Shown one piece after another: positions 146 to 33,587 of a stretch of DNA of 64,000 bases. A model generated the notes under the pieces. The model was given only the letters and a program-made list of their open reading frames with translations, was not told the origin of the DNA and searched no databases. Source of the stretch: Vampirovibrionales bacterium (GTDB lineage Bacteria; Cyanobacteriota; Vampirovibrionia; Vampirovibrionales; Vampirovibrionaceae); NCBI GenBank assembly GCA_029262635.1, contig JAJCZA010000018.1:1-64000 (forward strand), given 5' to 3'. A program made the position numbers and the translations under genes. Each line of letters opens with the position of its first letter. The first letter of the stretch is position 1.

Positions 146-1222
146 CTATTGCTGAGAGGTGAGAAGATCGAACGGGGTCTCTGGAGGCAGTTCGTTAATA
201 ACCTTCAGTACATCAATGATAGCGGCGTGGTTTTGAATGTTTTTGGGGACGGTACTAGAGTCTTTATAATGATTCACAAGGGCAAGGTAGATCTGATGTC
301 TCGCTCCTTCTAATGTTAATGGAGCATCTTCGGGTTGCTCGCTTTTTCTCTCTGAGTCTTTTGAGGTGCTGTTTTCCAGCAGAACGATTTTTTCTAGAAT
401 GTTCGGTGTTTCTTTAGGGAAAAATCTTGTCAGCCTTGCTAGGTAGCCTCGGTAGTGTTTGAGGGCTTTTTCAGGCTCTGGGTAGGTTTTTTCTGTTCCA
501 AGATAGTAAATATCTCCCAAACGTTTGTGTGATTGAGAGGAAAGGTTTCTTGCCCCCATATTTTTTTCTAGTAAATGTTTCGCATGAAACCCATCAAAGA
601 TATGCCGAGCTGCCTTTTTAATAAAAAGTGAATAAGCGTTTAAAGCGCTAATTTCGTCTCCTTCGCTCAGAGTATAATAGAGCAGCTCGACGGCTTTATC
701 TCTAAATGTTGTGCCGTCTTGAAGGGGTAAATCGGGGTAATGGAGTAATTTTTTGGCGACCTCGAATTCTACTTTTTCTCTGTCTCCCCATTGAGTCGAT
801 GTGTTCAGGTATTTGAGGACGATGTCGCCTATACCATCTGTGTCATCAAAATGGCGGAGTAGGCTGTTGGCCATTTCCCAAGCCTTATCGGATATTTTAT
901 GGGCCGGGTATTGGCTTAACGCCCGTTTGTAATAATAATCGGCCTTGGCCAAATCTTTAGGAACAAGTACTTCTTGGACGTATTTGTGGCCTTCATTTTC
1001 TAGGGTTTTGGCAGAAGAAAAAGCGGTCCATAGATTATTCCACCTTTGCTGCCAATTGGATAAAGTAGGGGCTTTTTTATAGGGTTTGTTGGTTAAGGTT
1101 AGGGTATCACCTGCTTTGGCAACGGGAGTCTGATGACCAAAATAGGGAGTGTTCTTTGGGGAAATGTCTTGCTTCATAGAATAAAGCGAAGGATTATTGG
1201 AAACGGTAGAGAGGGCGGGCAC
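146..1222 (-). CDS. hypothetical TPR/Sel1-like repeat protein with N-terminal PxFG motif
   Basis: 358 aa, function not recognised. The start is GTG at 1222, supported by AAGGAG 8 nt upstream. The N-terminal 60 residues look disordered and contain P-Y-F-G at residues 26-29, a motif shared with other lineage-type proteins in this window. From about residue 80 the protein is helical, with segments such as YYKRALSQYP and LGDIYYLGTEK...ALKHYRGYL that resemble TPR/Sel1 repeats, so it is probably a protein-binding scaffold. No classical signal peptide or membrane segment is visible. It stands alone on the minus strand, divergent from the amidohydrolase, and its stop is followed by a weak AATAGT/ACTATT hairpin. 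The repeat assignment is inference from pattern. Confidence 0.7.
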   Translation of the reverse strand: MPALSTVSNNPSLYSMKQDISPKNTPYFGHQTPVAKAGDTLTLTNKPYKKAPTLSNWQQRWNNLWTAFSSAKTLENEGHKYVQEVLVPKDLAKADYYYKRALSQYPAHKISDKAWEMANSLLRHFDDTDGIGDIVLKYLNTSTQWGDREKVEFEVAKKLLHYPDLPLQDGTTFRDKAVELLYYTLSEGDEISALNAYSLFIKKAARHIFDGFHAKHLLEKNMGARNLSSQSHKRLGDIYYLGTEKTYPEPEKALKHYRGYLARLTRFFPKETPNILEKIVLLENSTSKDSERKSEQPEDAPLTLEGARHQIYLALVNHYKDSSTVPKNIQNHAAIIDVLKVINELPPETPFDLLTSQQ

Positions 1223-2789: not shown

Positions 2790-4439
2790 ATGCAAACGTA
2801 TGGGATGATGTCGCCTTACACAGCGTATCAAACACGCTTTAGCGCGTCTCAATCTATTGAGAAGCGATTTTTAGGACAACAGCGTTCGGAAGGCTTTCAA
2901 AGACAGGCGAGCGTGCCTAAGTTCGGTTTAAGCGAAGAGTCCATCACCTATACGGGCTGGCAGGAAAAAGAAGTACGCCAGTACATGAAAGAATTCGGCG
3001 AACTTGAACAACCGCCTTACAACGCTAAATTTCATGCGGGTCGTCGTGAAGCCTTTTTGGATAAACTTCCGCCGAACACAACGGTGATTATTCCCGGAAA
3101 CACCCTGCATTTACGTAACGGGGATGTGGATTATGACTTTCGGCAGGATAGTAACTTCTGGTACCTGACCGGCTTTAACGAACCCGATGCCATTGCGATT
3201 CTCTCCAACGATCCAGAGCAACCTGAATTTGCCCTGCTGGTCCCTCCCATGGATCCAGAAGCGACCATTTGGACAGGTAAACGGGCCGGCGTGGAAGGGG
3301 CGCAAAATATTTATCAAGCCAATGAGGCTTATAGTCTGGATGATAAAAGCACAGTTCTTGAACATGTGGCTACGGAGAGTCGAAAACTGATGATGATTCC
3401 TTCGCAAGTCAATGAAAGCCTGAATGAGGAAATTCGTGTTCATGTTATCAGTAGCCGACTGGACAGTAGGATGGGAAACCCGGTGAGTTATTTGTATAAA
3501 CTTCGGGCCGTTAAAACGCCTTACGAAATTGCTCTGATGCAACGGGCCGTTGATATTTCCATTAAAGGCCATCGTCGTGCCATGGAGAAATTGAAGCTGA
3601 CGCCCGGACTCATGAAAAAGTACCCGGATCATTTGGGCAAGGGATTAAACGAAGGGACGATTCAGGCAGCCTTGGAAGAACCTTTCAAGCAAAACGGCGG
3701 GGTCCGTACGGCGTATCCCTCTATTGTCGCTTCGGGAGCCAATGCCTGTGTGCTTCATTATTTCCAGAACAATGACAATGCCCAGCCGAAAGATTCTGTC
3801 TTGATCGATGCCGGGTCAGAATGTGGAAACTATGCTGGGGATATTACTCGGGTCTGGCCGGTGGGAGGGAAGTTTTCTCCAGCGCAAAAGGCTCTGTACC
3901 AAGTGGTGCTGGGCGCACAAAAGGCGGCCATCGAAGCAGTGAAACCGGGCGTGACAATGGGTGAAATTGATGCCGTTGCCCGTGAGAAAATGGCTGAAGG
4001 GCTGATTCGATTGGGTATTTTGACAGGAACCGTTGAAGAAGCCCTGGGGACGGATGTGTTAACCGCACCGCTTCGGAAGTACTTTCCGCACAGCACCGGC
4101 CATATGCTTGGGTTGGATGTGCATGATGTCGGTATTGGTGAAACGGGAAAAGGGGTGCCTTCGTCGAGTAACGGAAAGCGGGATTATTTGGATACACCGA
4201 TAGAGGAGGGCTGGACCTTTACTATTGAGCCGGGGATTTATATCACACAAAAAATGGTCGAAGAAGAAGGGCTGGATCCCAAGTGGGCGAATATCGGTAT
4301 TCGAATTGAGGACGATATTCTGATGACGCCCGACGGTGCTAAAAATCTATCAGAGGCGCTTCCGCGAGAGATCAAGGATATTGAAGCGCTGATGAAAGGA
4401 AAAAGCCGTTTGGCGCAGACGCTGGACCTGAATGGCTAG
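2790..4439 (+). CDS. pepP: Xaa-Pro aminopeptidase P, M24B, with lineage-specific N-terminal extension
   Basis: 549 aa, longer than the usual 430-440 aa. It removes the N-terminal residue from peptides with proline at position 2, using two metal ions. The AMP_N domain starts near residue 75 and the M24 'pita-bread' domain near residue 235. All five metal ligands are present: D340 (LIDAG), D351 (YAGDITRVWP), H438 (HSTGHMLG), E480 (TIEPGIY) and E507 (IRIEDD). The first roughly 75 residues are extra, disordered-looking, and contain P-K-F-G at 43-46. GAAGGGAT at 2773-2780 supports this start. Its TAG stop overlaps the stop of the convergent gene in the palindrome CTAG. The core call is firm; the role of the extension is unknown. 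Confidence 0.93.
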   Translation: MQTYGMMSPYTAYQTRFSASQSIEKRFLGQQRSEGFQRQASVPKFGLSEESITYTGWQEKEVRQYMKEFGELEQPPYNAKFHAGRREAFLDKLPPNTTVIIPGNTLHLRNGDVDYDFRQDSNFWYLTGFNEPDAIAILSNDPEQPEFALLVPPMDPEATIWTGKRAGVEGAQNIYQANEAYSLDDKSTVLEHVATESRKLMMIPSQVNESLNEEIRVHVISSRLDSRMGNPVSYLYKLRAVKTPYEIALMQRAVDISIKGHRRAMEKLKLTPGLMKKYPDHLGKGLNEGTIQAALEEPFKQNGGVRTAYPSIVASGANACVLHYFQNNDNAQPKDSVLIDAGSECGNYAGDITRVWPVGGKFSPAQKALYQVVLGAQKAAIEAVKPGVTMGEIDAVAREKMAEGLIRLGILTGTVEEALGTDVLTAPLRKYFPHSTGHMLGLDVHDVGIGETGKGVPSSSNGKRDYLDTPIEEGWTFTIEPGIYITQKMVEEEGLDPKWANIGIRIEDDILMTPDGAKNLSEALPREIKDIEALMKGKSRLAQTLDLNG

Positions 4440-27004: not shown

Positions 27005-27622
27005 ATGACCAGTAGTCTCGATATTGAAACCCTACCTCCTAAACAGCGGCATGTGCTGGAATCTATTCTGGCGTTTATTGAAGAGAACGCTTACCCGCCT
27101 TCGATTCAGCAGTTGTGCGATCTTTGTGGTGTTAGTTCGACATCTACGATTCACCATCACATTAGCGCACTTAAGCGAAAAGGCTTTATTCACTGGAATC
27201 CAGCGGAGAAACGAGCGATCAGTATTAATACTGAATTTCTATCACCGAAAGGTGAGCTTCCTGTTTTAGGAACGATTGCTGCAGGAAGCCCTCTTCAGAC
27301 AGTTACCGATACGGTCGAAACACTTAATTTGAGTGAAGATCTTTGCCCAACTGGCTGTTATGCCCTTCGGGTCCGTGGCGAAAGTATGATTGAGGATCAC
27401 ATTATGGATGGCGATATTGTTATTATTAACCCCAAAAGTAGGGTTAGAGATGGTGATGTGGTGGTCGCTCTGGTAGATAGCGAAACCGCTACCCTTAAAC
27501 GGATTTATCGAGAAAGCAATGGTGTTCGTCTTCAACCGGCCAATGCCTCTATGGACCCAATCTTTGCTACCGACGTCCAAGTTCAGGGCAAGGTCGAAGC
27601 CATTATCCGGCAAAATATTTAA
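27005..27622 (+). CDS. lexA: LexA repressor, SOS response regulator
   Basis: 205 aa. The N-terminal winged helix (residues 10-70, with SIQQLCDLCGVSSTSTIHHHISALKRKGFI as the recognition region) binds SOS operators. The C-terminal S24 domain self-cleaves when RecA filaments form. The cleavage bond A93-G94 (GTIAAGSPL), the nucleophile S127 (RGESM) and the general base K165 (TATLKRIY) are all present, so it should be an active auto-protease. Recognition-helix residues differ from both E. coli and Bacillus types. A promoter and inverted-repeat operator sit just upstream, consistent with autoregulation. Confidence 0.95.
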   Translation: MTSSLDIETLPPKQRHVLESILAFIEENAYPPSIQQLCDLCGVSSTSTIHHHISALKRKGFIHWNPAEKRAISINTEFLSPKGELPVLGTIAAGSPLQTVTDTVETLNLSEDLCPTGCYALRVRGESMIEDHIMDGDIVIINPKSRVRDGDVVVALVDSETATLKRIYRESNGVRLQPANASMDPIFATDVQVQGKVEAIIRQNI

Positions 27623-28169: not shown

Positions 28170-29237
28170 ATGAGCTGTTCTCCTTCTTTAGCACCCATCG
28201 AGGTACTTGATTCCCTCGCCGGAAAAACCCTGGGTGAGCTTCAAGCACTTGTAGCCGATATGGGTGAACCGGTATTTAGAGCACAGCAACTCCATCACTG
28301 GATTTACGTAAAAAACGCACGAACTTTTGATGAAATGACCAATTTAGCCAAGTCGTTTCGAGAAAAATTGGCGCAACACTTTACTATCGGACACTTGGAA
28401 TTGGCAGAAAAGCAAATCAGCTCCGATGGCACCCGGAAGTATCTGTTCCGACTTTCAGACGGACAGCTCATTGAATCGGTGCTGATGCATTTTAAAGACC
28501 GGGACGGTTATAGTATTTGTATTAGCTCTCAAGTGGGCTGTGCGGTAGATTGCTCGTTTTGCGCTACCGGGAAACTTGGATTTAAACGAAACTTGACGGT
28601 TCCCGAAATTGTGGACCAATACCTTTATGTTCAGGCTGATCTTGGTAAAGAGGTTCGAAATATTGTATTTATGGGGCAAGGTGAACCTTTGCTGAATTAC
28701 GACAACCTACTTGCCGCTATTCGCCTTCTGAATCAATCCGCAGAAGTTGGTATGCGACACATTACCATATCAACCTCCGGCATTATCCCCCGGATTAGTC
28801 AACTGGCACAGGAAAAACTCCAATTGGTTCTTGCTGTCTCCCTCCATGCTCCAGATAATGATACCCGAAATCAGTTTATGCCCATCAATAAAAAATGGCC
28901 AGTAGAACAGCTTATCCAAAGCCTTCAAGACTATATCCGCCTTTGTGGACGTCGGATTACTATTGAGTATATTCTATTGGCGGGGATTAATGACTCCCGA
29001 GAACACGCCCATCGTTTAGGTCAGCTCACTCAGTCGCTTAAATGCAATATTAACCTGATTCCTTATAACCCTATTGGGCAGGACTATGATTTTAAGCGGC
29101 CTTCGCTAGAAACCATTGAAGCGTTTAAAAGCCGGCTAAGCCGTTATGGGAAAAAGGTGACCCTGCGTATGGAGCGAGGAACAGATATTGACGCGGCCTG
29201 CGGTCAACTGGCGAATCAGGCGAGCCTAAACAGGTAA
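28170..29237 (+). CDS. rlmN: 23S rRNA (A2503-C2)/tRNA (A37-C2) methyltransferase RlmN
   Basis: 355 aa radical-SAM enzyme that methylates C2 of A2503 in 23S rRNA and A37 in some tRNAs, tuning translation accuracy. The 4Fe-4S cluster motif C-x3-C-x2-C is at C124, C128 and C131 (GCAVDCSFCATGK). IVFMGQGEPLLNYDNL is the GEP-type SAM-binding block. The catalytic C-terminal Cys is in DAACGQLA. The N-terminal helical accessory domain (EPVFRAQQLHHWIYVKNARTF) is intact. Length is normal. It starts about 100 nt after the terminator at 28035 and is a single-gene unit. Confidence 0.96.
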   Translation: MSCSPSLAPIEVLDSLAGKTLGELQALVADMGEPVFRAQQLHHWIYVKNARTFDEMTNLAKSFREKLAQHFTIGHLELAEKQISSDGTRKYLFRLSDGQLIESVLMHFKDRDGYSICISSQVGCAVDCSFCATGKLGFKRNLTVPEIVDQYLYVQADLGKEVRNIVFMGQGEPLLNYDNLLAAIRLLNQSAEVGMRHITISTSGIIPRISQLAQEKLQLVLAVSLHAPDNDTRNQFMPINKKWPVEQLIQSLQDYIRLCGRRITIEYILLAGINDSREHAHRLGQLTQSLKCNINLIPYNPIGQDYDFKRPSLETIEAFKSRLSRYGKKVTLRMERGTDIDAACGQLANQASLNR

Positions 29238-29309: not shown

Positions 29310-29350
29310 CAGTCGATCGACTGGACAAACTCATGGCTTTATCCTAGAAT
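29310..29350 (+). promoter_or_regulatory. promoter with adjacent 14-bp palindrome
   Basis: TGGACA (29322-29327), exactly 17 nt, TAGAAT (29345-29350): five of six consensus matches in each hexamer. The perfect palindrome CAGTCGATCGACTG (29310-29323) touches the -35 box and is a good operator or activator site. TGTCAC is repeated at 29351-29356 and 29362-29367 around the predicted start site. Confidence 0.55.
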
Positions 29351-29390
29351 TGTCACTGAAATGTCACGAAAACCTTGAGGGGGGTTGGGT

Positions 29391-29540
29391 ATGATGAGGG
29401 TCTCTTTTTTAGAGAGTCGGTTATTAAAACCGGTCGGTATATTTCTTATTCCTTTTGGAACATTTAGGCAATCTGGCATTATGTTTGGTGTTAATACCCA
29501 CATATCCCCTAGCATCCTGCTAATCCTTTTGGGAACATAA
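29391..29540 (+). CDS. 49-aa hydrophobic small protein, translationally coupled to the next gene
   Basis: ATG at 29391 is preceded by GAGGGGGG with about 6 nt spacing and a good promoter about 40 nt upstream. The peptide is hydrophobic, with LLKPVGIFLIPFG and SPSILLILLGT segments, and could span or line the membrane. Its TAA stop overlaps the ATG of the next gene (TAATG), which itself lacks a ribosome binding site. Translation of the downstream gene therefore probably depends on this one. No family is recognised. It may be a functional small membrane protein or a regulatory leader. Confidence 0.5.
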   Translation: MMRVSFLESRLLKPVGIFLIPFGTFRQSGIMFGVNTHISPSILLILLGT

Positions 29541-30610
29541 TGATCGGTATGCTTGAAAAACCAAATATTCAACCTCCTCACCTGTCCAATTTAAGGGCCA
29601 CTTCGTCTCCTGCTTTTGGTAATGCGGCGCTCAAACGAGGGGTTCAGACCACGGGAATGGACGTAATCGAACGGTTTTCCCAAAAGCTGATGGAAAACCC
29701 CAAACTGGAAAAATGGGGGGCTTTTAATCCCAAACTGTGGAACTTGTCACTTCAAGACTGGTCTGCTCGGGTTTCGACCCTTTTTGCTTTCTATACCCCG
29801 CAAACGATTCTGGCCTTTACAGAGGAGAAACATAAGTGGGAGACTTTGGGGAGAAATCTTCTGAACTGGACGGGTACGATCGGTATAGTAGCTCTCTGTA
29901 AACATGATAAATACGGTATTAATGCCTTGTTTAACCCGTTTCTCAAACCTCGGGAAAATCTTTCTGAAACGGTTAAAGAAGTTACCGGCAAGCTTGAAAA
30001 CGCCGTAAAAGACTCAAGGACATTAGAACCTATAGTAAAAGAATCAGTGACCAGACTGAGAGCTTCCATAACATTTTTAGGAAAATGGGTTAACAGTAAA
30101 CGGTTCAAACCGGAGTTTTTCGATTTTCTCTCTGAGAAAGCCTATATTAACTTAGCAAACTGGACGGAACTGGACGAAAACCACTTTGACGAGATGAAAA
30201 ATATTTGGAAAGAGTTAGAGGCACAAAAAGTGAAAGCTGGGTTGACTGAATCGGAAAAATACATTCATGAAGCCATCCCGAAAGCAATGAACCGCATTAG
30301 TTCCTTTAAGTTTGCGGCTATCGGCCTTTCAACGGCCGCTTTGGCCTTTTTTATCGGTAAAGTGGTGATGGATTTGGTCTATCAATTTATCGCGCCGTTT
30401 GATCATGATTTTGATGCTGAAAAATATGCGAACTTAGGCAGAGGTAAAAAAGATAAAACCCTTCAAACACTTAATCTACCGTCGCCCTCTCGTCTTCCCT
30501 CTCGCCTTGCCCGAAGCCAAGAAAATGACCCCTTTACAGTCCCACCCCTCCAATATGTGACTCCGTTTCAACCCTTTAACCCGGCTTATGAAGGGGAGAG
30601 GCGTCCATGA
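29540..30610 (+). CDS. hypothetical membrane-associated protein with PxFG motif
   Basis: 356 aa, not recognised. P-A-F-G lies at residues 24-27. A weakly hydrophobic stretch occurs near 112-125 (WTGTIGIVALC), then a long charged helical region that could be coiled coil (ENLSETVKEVTGKLENAVKD). A clear membrane helix lies near 255-285 (FAAIGLSTAALAFFIGKVVMDLVYQFIAPF), and the last 70 residues are Pro-rich. The start has no Shine-Dalgarno but overlaps the stop of the 49-aa ORF; an internal ATG at residue 4 is an alternative. The stop overlaps the next start by ATGA, so this is the middle gene of a tightly coupled trio. Confidence 0.65.
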   Translation: MIGMLEKPNIQPPHLSNLRATSSPAFGNAALKRGVQTTGMDVIERFSQKLMENPKLEKWGAFNPKLWNLSLQDWSARVSTLFAFYTPQTILAFTEEKHKWETLGRNLLNWTGTIGIVALCKHDKYGINALFNPFLKPRENLSETVKEVTGKLENAVKDSRTLEPIVKESVTRLRASITFLGKWVNSKRFKPEFFDFLSEKAYINLANWTELDENHFDEMKNIWKELEAQKVKAGLTESEKYIHEAIPKAMNRISSFKFAAIGLSTAALAFFIGKVVMDLVYQFIAPFDHDFDAEKYANLGRGKKDKTLQTLNLPSPSRLPSRLARSQENDPFTVPPLQYVTPFQPFNPAYEGERRP

Positions 30611-31716
30611 ATTTTTTAACGCTAAATACCATTGCTCAAAATACGTTTCCCCATACTTCAAACATTGGCTATCAGGTTCGAGGAGCTTATCGAATTGAAA
30701 CCGCTATTCCGGAAGATCGAAAAATTGGTTATTGGTACCGGGACATGCTTGTTCCTCTTTTCGCCACTTATGGAATTGATTTAAGTATCCGTTTAGCCAA
30801 CTATTTACTGGCTTTTCCGGCCTACATACGGGCTTTAGGATTAGACAAACTGACCAAAGACAAAAATAGGGCTGAGTCCGTTAAAAATTACAATTACAAA
30901 GATTTTAACAGCCCGGGTGTTCTGCAAAGCCTTCGAGAACGGGTTCTTAATGCCTCAAAAGGGGGAAGTTACAGACGCATCCCAAAACTCTTCGAAGAAG
31001 TGGATATACCGAAAATGTCCGAACCCGAGAAAAAAGAGGCAAAAACCTTTTTAAATCACTTGAAACGGCAATTAAATTATTCTCAATATATTGATGATGT
31101 ATTGGTTCCCGCCAAAGAACTATCCCAAGAAGAAGGCGAGCTTCTCAAGAGAACGCTGACCGAAAGAGCCAAAAAGGCAACGGAAGAAGTAGCCCATAAA
31201 CTCCCACAAAAACTAAAGTTTCACCTGGAAGAGGCACTGAAAAACGATGCCGTGGTCAAACAATTGAAACATGTGAAAAGCATTAATTTTTTCCCTCAAA
31301 TGGCTGGAAACTTGCTTTATAGTTTCGTCATTCTCGGTGTTCTTACCAGTATCATTGATGTTAAAAAAATACAGCCCTGGCAAAGTAAACTGGTTGAACA
31401 AGGCTATGATTCGAATATTATTATGAAGCCGGCCTATCTTAGTTTTATCCCGGCTATTGGGGCTTTCGCCCTGGCTCATAAGAGTAAGGCGCTAAAAAAG
31501 CTAGGTTATATGACTCATTTCAATCTGACATGGCTCTCGGCATTAGCTGTCTATACAGCCAGCGCTTTTCTTTGGACATTTTCTCGGATTAAGCGAACTG
31601 AGCCACAGCCGCCTTTAAAGGTACAGCCTAAGGTGGCTATTCCTCAAGGGTTTAAGGAACTTCCGTTGAGCCGACCTAATCGGTTTAGTGCCTTCTCTGC
31701 CACGATGACTCGCTAG
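30607..31716 (+). CDS. hypothetical multi-helix membrane protein, partner of the preceding gene
   Basis: 369 aa, not recognised. Hydrophobic segments occur near residues 45-75 (DMLVPLFATYGIDLSIRLANYLLAFPAYI), 235-255 (MAGNLLYSFVILGVLTSII), 280-297 (AYLSFIPAIGAFALAH) and 307-328 (HFNLTWLSALAVYTASAFLWTF). A charged helical region with EEGELLKRTLTERAKKATEEVAHK lies between the first two. The C-terminus is Pro-rich and basic. The gene starts inside the stop of its neighbour (ATGA), indicating fixed stoichiometry and probably a membrane complex. No transport or enzyme motif is visible. Confidence 0.65.
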   Translation: MNFLTLNTIAQNTFPHTSNIGYQVRGAYRIETAIPEDRKIGYWYRDMLVPLFATYGIDLSIRLANYLLAFPAYIRALGLDKLTKDKNRAESVKNYNYKDFNSPGVLQSLRERVLNASKGGSYRRIPKLFEEVDIPKMSEPEKKEAKTFLNHLKRQLNYSQYIDDVLVPAKELSQEEGELLKRTLTERAKKATEEVAHKLPQKLKFHLEEALKNDAVVKQLKHVKSINFFPQMAGNLLYSFVILGVLTSIIDVKKIQPWQSKLVEQGYDSNIIMKPAYLSFIPAIGAFALAHKSKALKKLGYMTHFNLTWLSALAVYTASAFLWTFSRIKRTEPQPPLKVQPKVAIPQGFKELPLSRPNRFSAFSATMTR

Positions 31717-32025: not shown

Positions 32026-32355
32026 ATGGGTTTAGCTGCTAGCCAATCTCGATTTTTAATGTTGACCGCCCGAAAAAGTGATTTGGAATTAACCGGTCAG
32101 CAAATTAACCAATCTCGTTTGCAATTGGCCAATGTGACCAATGACCTTTTCAATGTAGCCTCTACTTTGGATCCCGATGCAGACGAAGCGATTCAAATTC
32201 AACTGCGAATCAACAGCTTGCAAGAGCTGGATCAAGCACTTGAGCTTCAACTCCGTCGTGTCGATACTCAGCAACAAGCTGTTGCTACCGAGATTGACGC
32301 CGTTCGAAAAATTATTGATAAGAATATTGATCTGACCTTTAAAACGTTCGCTTGA
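32026..32355 (+). CDS. small coiled-coil protein with MGLAASQ-type N-terminus
   Basis: 109 aa, almost entirely helical. The opening MGLAASQSRFLMLTARKSDLELTGQQINQ follows a pattern (G-x-AASQ-x-R-x-L-x-x-T-x-R) that I have seen at the start of small uncharacterised proteins in several bacterial groups. The remainder is heptad-like, with many Gln and Leu. There is no signal peptide, membrane helix or enzymatic motif. AAGGAGG lies 10 nt upstream. It is the first full-size gene of a three-gene operon with the Ala/Gly-rich protein and a second coiled-coil protein. A structural or chaperone role is conceivable; function unknown. Confidence 0.7.
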   Translation: MGLAASQSRFLMLTARKSDLELTGQQINQSRLQLANVTNDLFNVASTLDPDADEAIQIQLRINSLQELDQALELQLRRVDTQQQAVATEIDAVRKIIDKNIDLTFKTFA

Positions 32356-32398: not shown

Positions 32399-33316
32399 AT
32401 GAGTTATAAGCATGATTCTGAACTGGTTATCTTGAATAAATATGGTAAAGCCAGCCATGCGGCTAAGGCTGAACTGTTTGAAACCTATGATCGTATTCGG
32501 GACTTAACTGTATCTGGGCCAGCATTAGGCGGAAGCGGGAACGGAAAATTTTTCAGCTTTTTTATGAACCTGGCACGAACCTTTAGCTCTTCTGCTTTTG
32601 CGCCGACGTTTGGAAATGAATCCATTAATATTCCGGGTACCAATTTCTTTAGTCCGGTCACTGGCGGAACAGGAATTGTGCCGGGTGGTCAAGCCGCCTT
32701 TGGCTTAGCACCTTTTTCTCAATTTGGTGGTGGTCCAGCGGCTGGTAGTGCGGCCCCCGTCGGCTTTCTGGCAGGTGGTGCGGCTCCCTTGAGTACTAGC
32801 GCCTCGCCATTATCCTTAATGTCATCTTTTGGTGTTGGCTCAGATTTTACAAGTGGTCTCGGCATTAATGGCATTGGCGATAATGGGTTCCCTATTGAAA
32901 CCCTCGGCGGTGGAATTTTAGCTGGTGGTGCCAGTGGAATCGGAACGGCCGCAGCAGCAGGAGGGTTAGCCGCTGGAACGGCCGCCGGTGCAGGCTTTGG
33001 TAGGAATTGGGTTCTCCCTGCCGCTGGTATCGTTAGTGGAATTGGCGGCGTACTGACAACGCTAGGACCATTTTTTGGGCCTTTTGGAACAGCCGCAGCG
33101 GCTGGTGGAGCCGTTGTTAACGGGGCGGCAGGAGCCGTTCTCCAATCATTCCAGCATGTATCTAATCGGATTCTGGTAAATGCCGATACGATTTTAGCGA
33201 ACAAGGTAAAAAATTTAGAAACCACAGTCAAGCAGTTGGATGCTCAACAGAATATTATTAAAAAGCTCTTGAAAGAATCGGTAGACGGCGATAAAAAAGC
33301 TTTGGATAATCTCTAG
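32399..33316 (+). CDS. Ala/Gly-rich hydrophobic hypothetical protein
   Basis: 305 aa. ATG at 32399 with GAGGAT 5 nt upstream is preferred over an in-frame TTG at 32387. Residues 1-65 are mixed and include P-T-F-G at 69-72. Residues 90-255 are dominated by Gly/Ala with hydrophobic stretches (GGILAGGASGIGTAAAAGGL, WVLPAAGIVSGIGGVLTTLGPFFGPFG). The final 55 residues are a coiled coil (ILANKVKNLETTVKQLDAQQNIIKK). The mix of hydrophobic core plus coiled coil recalls pore-forming or translocator proteins, but no family match is claimed. The codon-rich Gly/Ala tract produces long spurious antisense frames. Confidence 0.65.
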   Translation: MSYKHDSELVILNKYGKASHAAKAELFETYDRIRDLTVSGPALGGSGNGKFFSFFMNLARTFSSSAFAPTFGNESINIPGTNFFSPVTGGTGIVPGGQAAFGLAPFSQFGGGPAAGSAAPVGFLAGGAAPLSTSASPLSLMSSFGVGSDFTSGLGINGIGDNGFPIETLGGGILAGGASGIGTAAAAGGLAAGTAAGAGFGRNWVLPAAGIVSGIGGVLTTLGPFFGPFGTAAAAGGAVVNGAAGAVLQSFQHVSNRILVNADTILANKVKNLETTVKQLDAQQNIIKKLLKESVDGDKKALDNL

Positions 33317-33326
33317 AGAGGTCTGG

Positions 33327-33587
33327 ATGAAAAAACTTAAAAAAACTCCTGATACCTTATTGAATACAACATTCGTAACGGCTTCCGTTCAGGGCAAAAA
33401 TTGGGTAACCGAGTTTTTTGATGAAATGATTCGAAATGTCAAAAACCTTTTCTTTTTACGAAAAAATATGCAAGCCGCTACCTCTCGGCTAAAAGAATTA
33501 GAAGGACGAGTAAAACAAATGGAATCCTTCATGGAACAGAATGACACAAATCCTTCGATTGGTAAGCGTATTGACAAAAAACGATAA
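33327..33587 (+). CDS. 86-aa coiled-coil hypothetical protein
   Basis: It starts 10 nt after the Ala/Gly-rich gene with GAGAGG just upstream. The basic N-terminus is followed by a predicted amphipathic coiled coil (NMQAATSRLKELEGRVKQMESFMEQ) and a basic tail (KRIDKKR). No function is recognised. It is the last gene of the three-gene operon. Its coiled coil could pair with the C-terminal coil of the preceding protein, which is inference. Confidence 0.6.
   Translation: MKKLKKTPDTLLNTTFVTASVQGKNWVTEFFDEMIRNVKNLFFLRKNMQAATSRLKELEGRVKQMESFMEQNDTNPSIGKRIDKKR

Follow-up and report, generated by a model that had tools for sequence, protein, structure and literature searches.

The 64,000-nt stretch of DNA analyzed here (hereafter, the window) carries two adjacent genes for predicted membrane proteins, A and B, that are found together in nearly all sampled genomes of their order. 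We put at about even the chance that A and B are order-specific, co-transcribed and co-translated membrane proteins that serve as subunits of one envelope-anchored complex. The original prediction had described a trio, in which a 49-aa hydrophobic frame and a palindrome-marked promoter completed the system; of this, the coupled A-B membrane pair, with its presence in 16 of 18 genomes and its predicted helices, stood, whereas the 49-aa frame and the palindrome did not.

The genome carrying the window has a size of 3.0 Mb in 31 contigs. Upstream of A-B, and on the same strand, lie a gene judged LexA-like from its sequence (27005-27622, +) and rlmN (28170-29237, +), identified by a Pfam match. 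The sequence features listed in the original prediction are all present, namely the palindrome CAGTCGATCGACTG (29310-29323, +), the promoter-like TGGACA-17 nt-TAGAAT (29322-29350, +; TGGACA at 29322-29327, TAGAAT at 29345-29350), the ribosome-site-like GAGGGGGG (29377-29384, +) located 6 nt before the ATG at 29391, the 49-aa open frame (29391-29540, +), the TAATG by which that frame ends in A (356 aa; 29540-30610, +), and the ATGA by which B (369 aa; 30607-31716, +) starts inside the stop of A. Codon scores of 0.162 for A and 0.164 for B were coding-like, relative to a 5th percentile of 0.054 for coding windows and a 95th percentile of 0.023 for off-frame open windows.

Hydropathy analysis of A predicted one membrane helix near residues 262-279. 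Its N-terminus is disordered-looking and contains a PAFG motif at residues 24-27, followed by a soluble helical region in which the alignment showed S70, D73, R77, E101, T102 and R105 to be invariant. R252 and D288 are further invariant polar positions, the latter within a PFD/PLD motif, and the protein has a Pro-rich tail. For B, about three membrane helices were predicted in the C-terminal third, which also contains a QPxQ motif, and the alignment identified an N-terminal conserved block (Y22, R25, R29, P35, R38, D41, Y42). The helical middle of B is much longer in relatives, where the protein has 555-977 aa as opposed to 369 aa in the window. A would thus cross the membrane once, its disordered tail leading into a helical domain of some 200 residues, and B would cross it several times and have a helical middle whose length varies. 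Searches of Pfam, NCBIfam, PHROGs, PADLOC and PDB sequences gave no meaningful match to A or B, which bore out the view that they have no recognizable family, and no literature on such a gene pair was found. Homology between A and B was weak (E 0.06 and 0.016 in two comparisons). AlphaFold models, made from 5-row and 4-row alignments of the window proteins and proteins of related loci only, had mean pLDDT values of 38.8 and 39.6 and were of too low quality to be informative.

Protein and profile searches found both genes in the same 16 of the 18 order genomes; the two genomes without them have estimated completeness of 78% and 56%. From the names of matched relatives, we take these 18 genomes to be Vampirovibrionales. 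A relative search with Vampirovibrio-type A proteins showed that Vampirovibrio chlorellavorus NCIMB 11383 carries the pair, with 100% identity to the A query taken from G004, and also returned three Vampirovibrio MAGs; these matches correspond to genomes of the window's own family. Outside the order, B had no match in 240 sampled genomes of the class, neither A nor B was found at E 1e-4 in 194 sampled genomes of the phylum, and the A profile gave only weak matches class-wide (E about 1e-3). B adjoins A in the genomes that have the pair, adjacency not being visible in G008, where the two genes lie at the ends of different contigs. The order lexA-rlmN-A is common to 7 of the 9 family genomes having the pair, and elsewhere its neighbors include genes for a phosphopantetheinyl transferase and PEP carboxykinase and an aspartyl-tRNA-synthetase-like gene. 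Since the neighbors vary between genomes while A and B stay adjacent, the pair persists as its surroundings change. As it occurs in every sufficiently complete genome of the order and was not found outside, the pair is a good candidate for a lineage-defining trait.

The start of B overlaps the stop of A, on the same strand, at all 15 readable junctions, either by 4 nt (ATGA/GTGA/TTGA) or by 1 nt (TGATG/TAATG), so that the tight coupling originally claimed for the window holds across the order. A purine-rich (G/A), Shine-Dalgarno-like sequence occurs inside the last codons of A, shortly upstream of B, at 15/15 junctions; in the window this is GAAGGGGAGAGG (30590-30601, +), a ribosome-site-like element of B that was absent from the earlier list. 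The recurring Gly-Gly near the C-terminus of A may be a by-product of this internal sequence. With the aid of the Shine-Dalgarno-like sequence, ribosomes that complete A would initiate on B at its overlapping start codon, and the two proteins would in this way be made together. Overlaps of 4 nt and 1 nt are ordinary in bacterial operons and therefore support joint expression rather than a fixed ratio; a fixed ratio, which had been read from the coupling, does not follow from the overlap, and B has its own Shine-Dalgarno-like sequence inside A. The overlap on its own is not proof of a complex. It is conceivable that A and B are co-transcribed, lineage-specific proteins that act in different processes and are adjacent through operon conservation, given that overlapping genes are common in bacteria and that contact between A and B is something we infer. 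We regard this as rather improbable, because the pair is kept as a unit across three families and in varied neighborhoods, with strict co-occurrence.

Coupled hypothetical membrane proteins are often part of mobile, phage or defense modules, and the pair could be read as such a module. This is very hard to reconcile with its near-universal presence in the order, with the single copy of A in its own genome and with the lack of a PADLOC or PHROG match of weight, and we give it almost no credence. No relative of A was found in plasmids or in IMG/VR, none of B was found in phages, and a scan of genome-contig data with B alone gave no match. Vertical, near-universal presence refutes a phage, plasmid or defense origin.

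The 49-aa frame was described fairly as hydrophobic (GRAVY 0.93, max KD19 1.62), and GAGGGGGG is a good, properly spaced start site for it. Its codon score of -0.029 lies below the coding range and resembles that of off-frame windows; short hydrophobic peptides can show atypical codon use. When the peptide was searched in the 18 genomes, no relative had a match adjacent to A. From its own Met onward, the N-terminus of A can be aligned with that of relatives having no such upstream frame. In five Vampirovibrio-type genomes the leader is partly kept as nucleotides, and three of these genomes have interruptions in the reading frame that corresponds to the 49-aa frame. Thus, among relatives of family and order level, none of them from the window's genus, the 49-aa frame is not kept together with A and B: it is lost while the two large genes remain, the outcome that had been named beforehand, for close relatives, as refuting the trio. 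With a non-coding-like codon score and no counterpart before A, it did not hold up as a gene or third member. An ATG frame of 30-90 aa ending no more than 4 nt from a gene start was found for 6 of 364 genes of the same genome (about 1.6%), and for this reason the TAATG is unusual, not extraordinary. Unrelated frames also end within 4 nt of the start of A in L052 (79 aa) and L061 (42 aa). These frames, the rarity of such an arrangement in the genome and the well-placed GAGGGGGG are what speaks for a 49-aa peptide that is a third stoichiometric membrane subunit or accessory peptide, TAATG-coupled to A and translated from its own strong site; set against the missing homologs, the codon score and the broken frames, they leave that reading unlikely.

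Somewhat better placed, if still doubtful, is a translated leader (upstream ORF) of neutral sequence, which would regulate or feed A by termination-reinitiation. It would account for the strong start site of the 49-aa frame beside the weak site of A, which has at most TTTTGGGAACATAATG and was fairly said to have no ribosome site, and it draws on the same frames in L052 and L061. Such a leader is not universal, as no ATG frame stops within 4 nt of the start of A in L054-L057, L060 or L062; in relatives a G-rich site immediately precedes A, and the leader fold showed no unusual stability (z -1.33). This reading concerns the 49-aa frame only and can hold together with an A-B complex. On balance, we favor placing the 49-aa frame within a 5′ leader that is specific to its lineage; it is probably not a conserved gene.

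The palindrome CAGTCGATCGACTG overlaps the -35 element by 2 nt. It occurs once in the whole 3-Mb genome, with one mismatch allowed, and is absent from all loci of relatives that were examined; perfect palindromes of 14 nt number 5 in the window and 1-9 in shuffles, which is chance level. It is probably not part of the system. As an operator it was also rejected, given the single genome copy and the lack, on visual inspection, of a similar site ahead of lexA. A 16-nt perfect palindrome, TCAGTATTAATACTGA (27219-27234), lies inside the LexA-like gene. The number of promoter-like sites in the region is at background level (7 observed vs. 5.5 ± 2.3 expected); TGGACA-17-TAGAAT scores 10 of 12, with only six such sites in 64 kb, and is a plausible, putative start of the A-B transcript. 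In the five Vampirovibrio-type genomes (L054, L055:7380-7545, L056, L057, L061), about 120 nt preceding A show partial nucleotide conservation, with the blocks ATATCATG, CTTCA-CG-CATTGAT, GCTA and GGGTG and a GGGTGTTATG-like sequence at the end; this block is a possible promoter and leader element. The window leader aligns unconvincingly with these blocks, and Rfam gave a sub-threshold match only. Future descriptions of the system should leave out both the small frame and the palindrome.

Next to the pair, the window encodes a 109-aa protein of a multicopy family (32026-32355, +; also L212-L217). Each of the 18 order genomes tested had matches to this family, mostly 3-7, with a single one in the genome that is 56% complete. 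Genomes of f6, a second family of the class, had 14-25 matches each, and none were found in the sampled families f4, f5 and f7-f9. The first 50 and last 50 residues of the 109-aa protein match the two ends of frames of 325-608 aa in f6, a predicted layout of conserved ends and variable center that is like that of filament proteins. The 109-aa gene is directly followed by a Gly/Ala-rich 305-aa frame (32399-33316, +) and then by an 86-aa coiled-coil-like frame (33327-33587, +), neither of which has a Pfam match above cut-off.

Among residues 8-60 of 367 proteins of the same genome, P-x-F-G was the most enriched three-residue pattern in an unbiased count (16 vs. 3.1 expected); it was not among the top patterns without the window, nor in two added genomes. 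The wider pattern P-x-F-[GSKT]-[GASN], which was picked after inspection and counted with crude gene starts, occurred 30 times vs. 6.7 expected when the window was left out and genome stretches of V. chlorellavorus (G004) and f6 were added. It is found in the first 60 residues of many uncharacterized proteins, in the window at 146-1177 (-), 2790-4439 (+) and 29540-30610 (+), the last being A itself, and at loci L152-L211, which span the same genome, V. chlorellavorus and f6. In the protein at 2790-4439 (+), which is Xaa-Pro aminopeptidase-like, the motif lies in an N-terminal extension. No literature on such an N-terminal motif was found. The motif is a lead, not a result on the function of A.

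Following the weak class-wide matches of the A profile led to a family of membrane proteins of about 440-1060 aa, which is found in the order and in f6 (L117-L146; in the same genome, G000:C2:317050-318501 and G000:C7:74662-77340) and for which no Pfam name was found. It has several copies per genome, and the taxonomic families in which it occurs are also those of the 109-aa family. Each chain contains two tandem modules (repeat 1 vs. repeat 2, hhalign E 2.7e-9), and each module has one predicted membrane helix and then a K/R-rich tail. When 389 proteins were searched with an HMM of the repeat unit containing no A sequence, the window's A was the top non-member (E 2.4e-5) and other A proteins came next. 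An A HMM recovered all five family members tested (7e-7 to 2e-4) above unrelated proteins, a half of the reciprocal test that is biased because a search with A had brought up these five in the first place. The C-terminus of A matched the repeat unit in hhalign at 1.5e-4, with 0.06 for the reversed control. B scored E 0.029 against the repeat unit, near unrelated proteins, and 0.01-0.03 in hhalign. Homology of A to the repeat unit was of moderate strength only. Because A shows a single membrane helix and not two modules in one chain, we consider it a probable distant relative of this class-wide tandem-repeat family rather than a typical member.

The module present twice in the tandem-repeat proteins is probably also the one from which A derives, and A plus B may represent a split two-module architecture. 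More broadly, we infer for the pair a physical complex, a scaffold role and a split-module origin. A bolder version, in which an order-defining envelope complex is a split double-module scaffold and A is targeted or assembled via an N-terminal P-x-F-[GSKT]-[GASN] tag, is speculative, and we hold it to be improbable. If true, this motif, common to many uncharacterized proteins of the class, would represent a previously undescribed signal for sorting or docking. Being linked both to a larger membrane family that lacks annotation and to an N-terminal motif shared with other proteins, the A-B pair provides handles for experiments in a poorly understood, non-photosynthetic cyanobacterial class, and the lineage with the pair includes the algal predator Vampirovibrio chlorellavorus.

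Compared with known translationally coupled gene pairs (ATGA/TAATG), A-B has the same type of overlap and a Shine-Dalgarno-like sequence in the upstream gene; the overlap itself is usual, and what sets the pair apart from common coupled pairs is the conservation of this overlap across one order. The tandem-repeat family resembles A in its one-helix module with a K/R-rich tail, in the x-F-[GSKT] motif that precedes the second module, and in the match of its repeat unit to the C-terminal region of A, but differs in having two modules per chain where A has one.
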